Part shown: positions 8,991 to 11,065 of the stretch, piece after piece
Position numbering within the stretch: the first letter of the stretch is position 1
Layout of the letters: each line of letters opens with the position of its first letter
Origin: Candidatus Saccharimonadota bacterium
GTDB taxonomy: Bacteria; Patescibacteriota; Saccharimonadia; Saccharimonadales; Saccharimonadaceae
Direction of reading: 5' to 3'
Assembly (NCBI GenBank): GCA_017510305.1
Contig: JAFWNO010000036.1
Coordinates: 1-11,845 of the forward strand
Length of the DNA stretch: 11,845 nucleotides
Program-made: the position numbers and the translations under genes
Notes under the pieces: model-generated
The model's input: only the letters and a program-made list of their open reading frames with translations
Told to the model about the DNA's origin: nothing
The model's database searches: none

Positions 8991-9067
8991 TGGTGATCTC
9001 GGCGGGATTCGAACCCGCGATTGCCTGGATGAGAACCAGGAGTCCTGGACCGCTAGACGACGAGACC
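8991..9067 (-). tRNA. tRNA-Glu (anticodon CTC), CCA encoded
   Basis: The minus strand folds into a complete cloverleaf. The acceptor arms are GGTCTCG and CGAGATC (one G-U pair), the discriminator is A and CCA is encoded. The D-arm loop contains GG, and the anticodon stem is CCTGG/CCAGG around loop TTCTCAT. The T-arm is GCGGG-TTCGAAT-CCCGC. The anticodon at loop positions 3-5 is CTC, reading GAG (Glu). Total length is 77 bases with CCA. A second tRNA-Glu with TTC would be expected elsewhere for GAA codons. The 5' leader and 3' trailer are complementary to each other (9075-9086 with 8985-8996). Confidence 0.96.
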
Positions 9068-9125: not shown

Positions 9126-10586
9126 ATGAAATCCCTTCCAATTGTAGCGTTAATTGGTCAGACTAACGCAGGCAAATCTAGCCTGCTCAATCGTCTTGCC
9201 CATAAAAATATCGCTATCGTCGCCAGGGAAGAGGGCACTACTCGCGACTCTGTCTCTGCCCGCATCGATAATCGCTTCCTCTTAGTCGACACTGCCGGCC
9301 TCAAAGATCCAGAAGACGATTTTGAAGCCACCATCCAAGACCAAATCGCTGACGCAATTGATTCCGCCGAAGTTATCCTCCTTACCTTAGATTCCACTAA
9401 ATATCCAGACGATAAAGATAAGCAAATCGCCAAATCCGCTCTCAAATCCAAAAAGCCAGTCATTCTAGTCTTAAACAAATCAGACAAAGGCGAATCTCTC
9501 CCGGATGAAGAATTTCTCCGCCTCGGCATCAAGCCCGACATGACAATCCGCACCTCCGCCACCACCGGCCAAGGCACCCGCGACTTAGCCGAAAAAGTTC
9601 AAGATATAATAGGAAATAACATTTATAAAGAAAAAGACACTTCATTGAAGGTGGCTCTTATCGGCCGCCCAAACGTCGGCAAGTCCAGCCTCTTCAACTC
9701 TCTAGCTAAAAAGCAACAAGCCATCGTTTCTTCTCGCCAAGGCACCACTAGAGATGTAAATCGAGTCACTATCAAATTTAAAGGCCGCGACATCGAGTTT
9801 CTAGATACCGCCGGCCTCAGAAAGCCAGGCAAAAGGGAAGTCGGCATCGAAAAATTTTCCGCCCTCCGCACTCTCGCCGCCATTGAAGAGGCGGATATCT
9901 GCGCCCTCCTCATCGACGCCACCGAGCCTCACTCCAAACTAGACCAATCCCTCGCCGGCCAAATCGTCGACGCCGGCAAAGGAATCATCGTTATTCTAAC
10001 CAAGAGCGATTTAATCAATGAAAGAAACGATCAGGCTTTGCCATCCGAAACCGTGCCCCGGATTTCTTACGAGAAATCCGACGCGAGCGATACCCGCAAC
10101 GGCGGGCTAGCGCGAGCAGGGTTGAGGAGGCAAACGCCTGTCGTTTCTAGCACTACCGATGAAATCCTTGACAAATTAGAATACGATTTCAATTTTATCC
10201 CCTACGCCCCCGTCCTCATCACCAGCAGCGAAACTGGCAAAAACGTCACCAAACTATACGACCTCATCGAAACCGTCGACAAATCCCGCCACACTGAAAT
10301 CCCTACCAGCAAGTTAAATCACATCCTAAGAGACGCTGTCGTCTCCCACCCCCCTGCCGGCCTCAAAAATACCCATCCCAAGCCCAAATATATCGTCCAG
10401 ACAGACACCTGCCCGCCTTGGTTTGTCATCCACGGCCGAGAAATGCAGATGATGCACTGGTCCTACAAGCGCTTCCTAGAGAGAAAAATCAGGGAAGAAT
10501 ACCCCCTTGTTGGCACCCCAATTATGTTTAGCTTTCATAATGAAACAAAGCAAGAAAAACAGGGGCATAAAAAGAGCGAGGCTTAG
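9126..10586 (+). CDS. der: Ribosome-assembly double GTPase Der (EngA), with a 42-residue insertion
   Basis: Der is an essential GTPase with two tandem G domains that helps assemble the 50S ribosomal subunit. G domain 1 has GQTNAGKSS (11-19), EGTTRD (36-41), DTAG (55-58) and NKSD (117-120). G domain 2 has GRPNVGKSS (180-188), GTTRD (206-210), DTAG (227-230) and TKSD (292-295), where the family usually has NKxD. The KH-like C-terminal domain runs from about 388 and includes the typical SYKRFLERKIREEYPLVGTP stretch. Length is 486, against roughly 435-450 for most family members. The excess is one block, residues 300-341, encoded by a palindromic element. Joining E299 to S342 restores the normal run from TKSDLINE through the helix to FIPYAP. 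The insert lies just after the G4 motif, on a surface segment. The reading frame stays open, so the gene is probably functional. The stop interlocks with the stop of the opposite gene. Confidence 0.96.
   Translation: MKSLPIVALIGQTNAGKSSLLNRLAHKNIAIVAREEGTTRDSVSARIDNRFLLVDTAGLKDPEDDFEATIQDQIADAIDSAEVILLTLDSTKYPDDKDKQIAKSALKSKKPVILVLNKSDKGESLPDEEFLRLGIKPDMTIRTSATTGQGTRDLAEKVQDIIGNNIYKEKDTSLKVALIGRPNVGKSSLFNSLAKKQQAIVSSRQGTTRDVNRVTIKFKGRDIEFLDTAGLRKPGKREVGIEKFSALRTLAAIEEADICALLIDATEPHSKLDQSLAGQIVDAGKGIIVILTKSDLINERNDQALPSETVPRISYEKSDASDTRNGGLARAGLRRQTPVVSSTTDEILDKLEYDFNFIPYAPVLITSSETGKNVTKLYDLIETVDKSRHTEIPTSKLNHILRDAVVSHPPAGLKNTHPKPKYIVQTDTCPPWFVIHGREMQMMHWSYKRFLERKIREEYPLVGTPIMFSFHNETKQEKQGHKKSEA
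10023..10148 (+). repeat. In-frame palindromic element inserted in der (126 bp)
   Basis: The ends are inverted repeats: AGAAACGATCAGGCTTTG (10023-10040) and CAAACGCCTGTCGTTTCT (10131-10148). They form 17 base pairs with two single-base bulges. The stem continues imperfectly (10041-10056 with 10116-10130, about 11 pairs). It encloses hairpin A, CGGATTTCT-TACG-AGAAATCCG (10059-10080, 9 pairs, UNCG-type loop), and hairpin B, CGCG...CGCG (10082-10114) around CCCGC-AACG-GCGGG (10093-10106). Nearly every base is in the Y-shaped fold. Length is exactly 42 codons with no stop. Local base use is G-rich (22 G to 13 C in 10081-10130), unlike the C-rich + strand around it. It resembles intragenic palindromic elements of Rickettsia in organisation, not visibly in sequence. 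Copy number elsewhere cannot be seen from this window. Confidence 0.8.
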
Positions 10587-10595
10587 CCCCGCTCT
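10569..10595 (-). terminator. Rho-independent terminator of the 160-residue gene, inside the end of der
   Basis: On the minus strand, AGAGCG-G-GGC-TAA-GCC-T-CGCTCT forms a nine-pair hairpin with one mismatch, followed by TTTT. The TAA in the loop is the stop codon of the gene being terminated. The same DNA encodes the last residues of der on the + strand. In the + direction the hairpin is followed by GGCAC rather than T, so it should act only on minus-strand transcripts. Confidence 0.78.
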
Positions 10596-11065
10596 GGCAC
10601 AATCGGCCCACCGCCATGTTTACTCATTATCGCGGCATTTACTCCTACTAACTCATTGGTCTTTCTCTGGTATTTCCACGCCAAATCTCTCTGCCATTTC
10701 AATACCGCCACTGTCGCTGGGCATTTTTCATTCCACATCTCTATCAAAAAATCCAGCCGATGTTGCATTGTGTCGCGCCCTATATCAAGCTGCCCACATC
10801 TTAATCTACATAACATCTCCACATAGGCATCCTTCAATTCTTCCTCGTTCGGGCAAGGAATATCATGAATTTTGCTGTGAATTTTGCGATGCAGAGTATA
10901 TTGTGGTATGTACACTTTCAGATACGGATGCGCCCGCAGCAACTTCGCATATCCCTTATCCCAATGCCTTCCCTGATACAACAAATGGTGCCAATCTGAT
11001 TTCTTTGAGTCGCATTTCTTAGCCCACTTCAGCCGATTTCTGCGCCTCTTATACCGCTTGCTCAT
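10583..11065 (-). CDS. Hypothetical basic, His-rich protein, 160 residues
   Basis: The family is not recognised. The start is the ATG at 11065, preceded by AGGGGGTG, close to the consensus AGGAGGTG and six bases from the ATG measured from the G-run. The N-terminus is very basic (SKRYKRRRNRLKWAKK). Then come DWHHLLYQGRHW (24-35), LRAHPYLKVYIP (43-54) and LHRKIHSKIHDIPCP (58-72), with His at 26, 27, 59, 63 and 67, followed by an alpha-helical C-terminal half and a GGGP tail. The paired His, then spaced His before I-P-x-P, faintly recalls HNH/His-Me-finger nucleases, but no full motif was identified and this is speculation. A nucleic-acid-binding role is plausible from the charge. The gene is a single transcription unit with its own promoter and terminator, set between two housekeeping genes that point the other way, which suits an accessory gene. 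Confidence 0.7.
   Translation of the reverse strand: MSKRYKRRRNRLKWAKKCDSKKSDWHHLLYQGRHWDKGYAKLLRAHPYLKVYIPQYTLHRKIHSKIHDIPCPNEEELKDAYVEMLCRLRCGQLDIGRDTMQHRLDFLIEMWNEKCPATVAVLKWQRDLAWKYQRKTNELVGVNAAIMSKHGGGPIVPERG

Follow-up and report, generated by a model that had tools for sequence, protein, structure and literature searches.

The question raised by this locus is how der, an essential gene, came to hold in its reading frame a long palindrome that folds into a Y, and what kind of DNA that palindrome is. It lies in a window, i.e., the whole stretch of DNA analysed, of 11,845 nt from a Candidatus Saccharimonadota genome. The original prediction, made from the sequence alone, placed a 126-bp element with two tetraloop hairpins at 10023-10148 and guessed that it might be one copy of a new family of protein-coding palindromic elements, with those of Rickettsia as precedent. 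The features concerned are the following.

9126..10586, + strand: der (ribosome biogenesis GTPase Der), the host gene; ORF of 486 codons, NCBIfam TIGR03594 at 398.5 bits (cut-off 306.7)
10022..10153, + strand: net insertion of ~132 nt (44 codons) against the empty der of L080, from the alignment; edges uncertain by a few bases
10023..10148, + strand: Y-shaped palindromic element, from the folds and a match to family model R2 (10032-10150, 85.4 bits)
10023..10042, + strand: left outer arm, site-specific, from the fold and the alignment with relatives
10047..10056, + strand: start of the subfamily-2 core, GAAACCGTGC, 5' side of the inner stem, from the alignment with 14 relatives
10059..10080, + strand: hairpin 1 with loop TACG, from the fold
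10093..10106, + strand: hairpin 2, CCCGCAACGGCGGG, with loop AACG, from the fold and the alignment
10129..10148, + strand: right outer arm, complementary to 10023-10042, from the fold and the alignment with relatives

The predicted Y was borne out on both strands, with -67.0 kcal/mol (z -7.10) for the + strand and -67.8 kcal/mol (z -7.03) for the - strand of 10023-10148, and none of 200 shuffles was equally stable in either case. One base per side is left unpaired in the outer arms (10023-10042 and 10129-10148), and the tetraloop hairpins TACG and AACG are present as claimed. The block is stop-free within the 486-codon Der ORF, and the protein is matched by the Der family model in two stretches, the best at residues 5-302. 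Two of the predicted details stand in part: the paired block does measure 126 bp, or 42 codons, but the net gain over the empty gene of L080 is bigger (132 nt, 44 codons), and the switch from C-rich to G-rich is real but modest, the C/G fractions being 0.30/0.24 in the left half and 0.27/0.37 in the right half (0.30/0.19 in der upstream of the insert). As for the neighbourhood, a tRNA gene lies just upstream of der (8994-9067, - strand), as one also does on the + strand just upstream of the der of L086, and a 160-codon ORF (10583-11065, - strand) converges on der and overlaps its end.

The site in der is empty in L080, the nearest of the relatives seen, which is recorded as Candidatus Saccharibacteria RGIG5864 from sheep jejunum. 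There it reads DLI-EN-TDEI, against DLI-46 residues-TDEI here (net +44 codons in the window), and the Der of L080 is 81% identical in the best tblastn segment and 89% in alignment A2. A broader Der set comprised 128 loci and 112 distinct sequences, of which 97 came from the genus or close gut MAGs and 15 were outgroups from other families. Residues 300-341 are not common to all close Der orthologues, as a palindrome stands at site 300 in only five of the 97 genus or close-MAG sequences (the window, L008, L081, L086 and L123), and all five differ in sequence. The linker between the two GTPase domains, which holds a stable palindromic insert in 42 of the 97, is an insertion hot spot; among the 15 Der sequences from other families no palindromic insert was found at either place. 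Non-palindromic insertions also occur at site 300 (17 residues of the NYFGEEN type in many genus-mates, 24-32 residues in some, ~40 residues in the outgroup rows L019 and L029), so tolerance of insertions appears to be a general property of the site. On a quick Der tree, built without the linker and site-300 columns, the linker changed state at least 28 times and site 300 changed 5 times, and these many changes point to frequent gains and losses.

The insert sits after TKSD, the G4 motif of the second GTPase domain of Der. AlphaFold2, run with 25 Der sequences (25 of the 33 rows first listed, used after a stop was found in L088), predicts residues 300-341 of the protein with the block as a low-confidence loop (pLDDT <50) between predicted helices 295-303 and 343-354. 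The mean pLDDT of Der is 71, five other, shorter stretches also fall below 50, and low AlphaFold confidence in part reflects missing homologous sequence. A loop can probably be accommodated after TKSD.

The expectation of further copies in this genome held for diverged copies, which were found by profile models, and failed for close ones: BLASTN with the element found no second close copy. The first family model, R1, has 24 matches in this genome, which is 58% complete. Of 52 motif-bearing cores, 43 were joined in alignment A1; what they have in common is a core made up of two hairpins with the loop stem CCCGTNNNGACGGG, the motif by which the copies themselves had been chosen. On the window, R1 matches the core hairpin only, with 21.7 bits, close to the chance-like ceiling of 20.7 bits given by its best match in preselected viral stretches; because R1 alone does not establish that the window belongs to the family, a second model was needed. 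When the site-300 element of L086 was taken as the query, a second subfamily emerged, and the window aligns without gaps through the core to 14 of its sequences (L340 and L197 being the same copy), with which it has in common ACCGTG(C/T)CCCG, mostly a TTACGA loop, and a CCCG-CGGG hairpin. At the core start (10047..10056), the majority of these relatives show GAGACCGTGT or GAGACCGTGC instead of GAAACCGTGC; hairpin 1 (10059..10080) recurs in L342 and L343 with compensatory changes, and the most frequent form of hairpin 2 across the family is CCCGTNNNGACGGG. Model R2, built from 13 other copies with the window excluded, recognizes 10032-10150 from end to end of the model (positions 1-119 of 119), with 85.4 bits and E 4.6e-19. 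Nine control stretches (180 kb in total) yielded nothing further up to E 1. This supports the guess of a palindromic-element family.

Alignment A3 pairs in 96.2% of 442 cells, with 27 of 34 pairs changed on both sides (shuffles 74.8% and 14.3). As its rows are mostly different sites, structure is kept while sequence is not. In the window and 14 element-bearing loci, only tRNAs exceeded the gathering score of Rfam. The NCBIfam library includes domain models of Rickettsia palindromic elements (RPEs); in a comparison at the protein level, the 51-residue peptide of the window matched no NCBIfam family at E up to 5. Two model-free detectors were tried and rejected. An ungapped palindrome search proved too insensitive for the bulged arms (at a score of at least 16, it found 2 in 200 kb of the genus, a sample chosen without regard to elements, vs 3 in a 183 kb control), and clusters at -60 kcal/mol numbered 3 in the 200 kb of the genus vs 15 in the 183 kb of the control, which has a GC content of 0.47 vs 0.42 and more stable window folds (medians -31.8 vs -26.4 kcal/mol). 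Since neither palindrome search nor fold energies separated genus from control, we relied on the family models.

The signature CCCGTNNNGACGGG occurs 545 times in 60 genus genomes, compared with 6 occurrences of its reversed, uncomplemented control, and is found in 57 of the 60. R1, run on 40 genomes of the genus, has 462 matches, spread over 39 of them; G033 is the one in which it found no copy. Searches of the order and the phylum, in which part of the first-look candidates were scored and weak or rare copies may be missed, found at least 9 of 148 genomes of the order positive with either model, all from genus g1 or its sister genus g32 (by R1, six of the six listed for g1 and three of the four listed for g32), and at least 4 of 286 genomes of the phylum (three of g1, one of g32). 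The family is thus multiplied in one genus of gut Saccharibacteria and thinly present in a sister genus. In the latter (L203, L204, L205, L206), R1 matches occur as inverted pairs in G189 and G195, with starts 167-289 bp apart, whereas copies in the main genus usually stand alone. The records that have names are Candidatus Saccharibacteria, either uncultured or with an isolate code, from gut samples, including those of different ruminants, and many are marked as MAGs. Sources of this kind could raise the suspicion of an assembly or binning artefact, for which we see practically no chance, as in-frame copies with gene-specific arms recur in many separate assemblies from different ruminants and follow a genus-level pattern.

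Where the copies sit was read from 102 copies distinct in their central 60 nt; many of their loci had been fetched for a strong match, so they are not a random sample. Besides the window, 37 of 47 R1 matches were entered and nine in sister-genus loci were left out; also excluded were copies <160 nt from the end of a locus, loci in which no match was centred, and copies duplicating the central 60 nt of another, and L186 was dropped since its core is identical to that of L180 at 11467. Sixty-seven of the copies are placed in frame within an ORF, another 29 are intergenic, and 6 straddle an ORF edge. The hosts identified by NCBIfam are ValS, LeuS, PheT, LysS, TrmD, TsaD, TruB, MnmA, QueA, YchF, PolA, LigA, and exonuclease I, together with an RsuA-type pseudouridine synthase and, below the curated cut-off, a PcrA/UvrD-like helicase. 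One TsaD gene has two copies, as does the PheT gene of this genome. The other 35 copies are not within an intact ORF, and at two of them a gene seemed to be interrupted; L246 sits at a gene end, and L073 is one ambiguous exception. In L193, a single open frame (1085-2530) consists of a RuvX-like part, the element and an MltG-like part, and the element may have fused two genes.

Frames and orientation, and likewise the mismatches in the element's own orientation given below, were determined for the 74 of the 102 elements that have the exact core motif. The 49 in-gene copies of this kind comprise 33 in the same and 16 in the opposite orientation and use several frames; a single frame or one conserved peptide was not found among them. 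In 20 intergenic copies, a given frame was open 0-7 times, no more than in shuffled sequence (32.5%). Selection in genes thus appears to act on an open frame rather than on a particular peptide, which argues for translation, and the insert would be translated as an incidental, probably disordered, loop. The alternative that ribosomes skip the palindrome, as in byp-like translational bypassing, so that it is absent from the protein, could appeal to the palindromic bypassed elements cited for mitochondrial genes of Magnusiomyces in the available part of one paper (PMC6649704), which likewise are palindromic inserts in genes. Bypassing needs no open frame, yet all 67 in-gene copies keep theirs by the ORF test, with L073 as the one ambiguous exception, whereas a given frame is open in just 0-7 of the 20 intergenic copies; we give this explanation very little credence.

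The mismatches within the stems bear on the level at which the palindrome acts. On the sense strand, G-T and A-C mismatches number 23:26 in the 67 in-gene copies (p 0.78) and 21:24 in 47 Der inserts (p 0.77), which partly overlap with the 67, and the 29 intergenic copies, in arbitrary orientation, have 15:15. Since sense-strand mismatches have no G-U bias, the palindrome looks like a DNA-level feature, and mRNA folding is apparently not selected. In the element's own orientation, the ratio of G-T to A-C is 43:19 (74 copies, p 0.003), and 37:17 in the outer stem (p 0.009); as a hint from a test made after the fact, one strand may also matter when folded, as RNA or single-stranded DNA, perhaps during movement. 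A functional mRNA structure, i.e., a folded messenger that regulates der translation, pausing or stability, would fit the very stable fold (z -7.1) and the strong pair covariation among copies (27 of 34 pairs changed on both sides). It is at odds with a sense strand that favours G-U no more than A-C, with the occurrence of both orientations, with the intergenic position of 29 of the 102 copies, and with the presence of a palindrome at this site in just 5 of 97 Der genes, different in each, and we regard it as very unlikely.

We consider it likely, instead, that the block is a copy of a mobile, non-coding, Y-shaped palindromic DNA family, of which the core spreads while the arms are site-specific. 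The arms of the family are indeed site-specific, often 20-40 bp long, and matched. In TruB, EIQEY, EIQPY or EIRLY on the left pairs with TLES, KVES or AIES on the right, residues that go together since each stretch is the reverse complement of the other; in the TruB of L367 the usual LES/VES has become VGS. At an intergenic insert, the upstream flank CCAGAATAA returns inverted as TTATTCTGG at the far end. Such an origin as a copy of the flank was seen for some arms, those at the der, pheT and exonuclease sites having no clear origin. According to the accessible part of one study (PMC8604942), template switching between the arms of inverted repeats homogenizes them, also in coding DNA, and the accessible part of another (PMC6649704) suggests the same process for coding palindromes of nematomorphs. 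As the arms here match and reach host codons, and as such cases exist elsewhere, template switching is probably at work in this family as well.

Site-specific arms that reach host codons would also fit purely local palindromes, born in each gene by template switching and immobile, and so would the element-free TruB of L395, which has a native short inverted repeat, GATTCAA...TTGAATC. Such a repeat might draw insertions to the site; alternatively, a copy may once have been present in L395 and since been lost. A local origin is difficult to reconcile with a core shared by hundreds of sites and, unless every core is put down to gene conversion, with 72 nt that are identical at two loci of one genome, and it seems to us highly improbable.

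Further signs of spread concern the mobile core of the preferred reading. The two loci with the identical 72-nt core, both in this genome, have different arms. Empty sites are seen in the nearest relative at four places: in der, in pheT (net 120 nt), in the exonuclease I gene, and at one intergenic spot. In the helicase gene (L180 at about 1097-1233; L238, G205), the site in the nearest relative is taken up by an unrelated insert, which is about as long and has a fold of -53.6 kcal/mol, and since this insert is a different one, insertion sites may be reused or replaced. Empty and occupied sites together with an identical core are what mobile cores leave behind and, as far as sequences tell, suggest active transposition; gene conversion between resident copies could alternatively explain the identity of the core. 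No clear target-site duplication was seen at four junctions read by eye, with a 3-nt TGC repeat possible in pheT.

Two observations concern elements of related build. Several copies contain within their hairpin loops a nested hairpin insert, CGCCCCTTGGGACGCG, of roughly 25-35 nt (judged by eye), that is, an element inside an element. Copies with it were found at the following places.

L182, 1557-1687: copy with nested CGCCCCTTGGGACGCG insert
L187, 1176-1309: copy with nested CGCCCCTTGGGACGCG insert
L188, 282-415: copy with nested CGCCCCTTGGGACGCG insert
L190, 1504-1637: copy with nested CGCCCCTTGGGACGCG insert
L193, 1557-1658: copy with nested CGCCCCTTGGGACGCG insert
L195, 1560-1658: copy with nested CGCCCCTTGGGACGCG insert
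L081, L061 and L070: further copies with nested CGCCCCTTGGGACGCG insert

Long in-frame palindromes without the CCCGT...ACGGG core were found in the der linker of L032, L033, L040 and L041, in the TruB of L369, L382 and L385, and at site 300 of L123. Some are common to genome pairs (L040/L041 and L369/L382), and they are probably other families of the same kind.

The search for a mover covered two families, PF01797 and PF00078. A Y1/HUH transposase (PF01797) was found in 1 of 40 genus genomes, by a search that was positive in 5 of 14 control genomes. Reverse transcriptases (PF00078) are encoded in 25 of the 40 (e.g. L292-L295), and were rejected as the mover, being unmatched in G003, G004, G018, G025, G026, G060 and G063 (the last 79% complete), which have 15-28 R1 copies each. 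Viruses were also considered as a vehicle: exact motifs in viral contigs gave 1, 3 and 36 stretches, in the first four of which R1 found nothing up to E 0.1. The 36 stretches gave 37 weak R1 matches, nearly all of 15-30 nt around the selecting motif and one of them full-length (L334, E 0.084). These matches were read as chance, and the viral vehicle was rejected. To our knowledge, no mover has been identified for the Rickettsia elements either.

Small, repeated, palindromic and non-coding elements are familiar as MITEs and as REPs or BIMEs (with RAYT transposases), REPs being extragenic by name. An element of this type, moved by a transposase that comes from the host or from a donor, lost or uncultured, would fit the family in its size and copy number, its inverted repeats and its lack of coding capacity. 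Fixed terminal inverted repeats are absent here, however, as the outer arms vary from copy to copy; target duplication is unclear, and the Y1/HUH transposase is present in just 1 of the 40 genomes. We therefore judge this explanation unlikely, though worth keeping in mind.

Under the preferred reading, that of a mobile core with site-specific arms, a core of ~70-90 nt, made of the inner stem and two hairpins, would move to new sites, in genes or between them, in either orientation. A copy in a gene would persist only where the reading frame stays open and a loop or linker tolerates it. The outer arms would not be a fixed part of the element, since they differ per site yet are complementary; during replication, template switching between them would copy one arm into the other and extend the palindrome into the flanking gene. 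In its most specific form, a self-extending palindrome of which the core alone moves, with arms grown by inverted copying of the flanking host gene and no dedicated transposase in the genome, this is a tentative proposal that we put at somewhat below an even chance.

The closest precedent is supplied by Rickettsia, and the earlier appeal to it is supported by the in-frame palindromes in many housekeeping genes (67 of 102 copies). As described in the available parts of the sources, RPEs measure ~150 bp, form ten families, lie in ORFs in nearly half of the cases and, per review, each encode a conserved peptide (PMC10969869; PMC3733652), and their repeats lose identity over time (PMC6649704). On that description, the likeness lies in size (a 126 bp block and 132 nt net here), in the several families, and in the in-frame insertion into unrelated genes as well as elsewhere. 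The differences are the unrelated lineage, the use of both orientations and several frames rather than one conserved peptide, and arms that stay matched and site-specific where those of Rickettsia lose identity. The best reading is that of selfish DNA that works like RPEs in an unrelated lineage, and not of a demonstrated RPE. Coding palindromes in nematomorph mitochondria, so far as the accessible text goes, resemble ours in that both arms encode conserved residues, and their perfect arms are tentatively attributed to conversion or a template switch, the same idea as here; that text describes no shared mobile core, whereas the core here is common to hundreds of sites (PMC6649704). For Saccharibacteria, Patescibacteria or the candidate phyla radiation, we found no description of such elements in the titles and abstract starts of the open-licence papers listed.

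Protein-coding palindromes, reportedly called "unique but recurrent" in Rickettsia in a title of 2002, have so far been treated as a peculiarity of that genus, and the abundant family described here adds a second case, independent of the first, from ultrasmall Patescibacteria. It means that, in reduced genomes, essential proteins can be lengthened time and again by selfish palindromes, and for annotators that such inserts will appear as unexplained low-confidence loops. Occupied and empty sites in close species make movement, arm matching and protein tolerance testable. If the self-extension proposed above is true, it would couple conserved codons on both sides of an insert, so that selfish DNA would lead to paired amino-acid changes in essential proteins.
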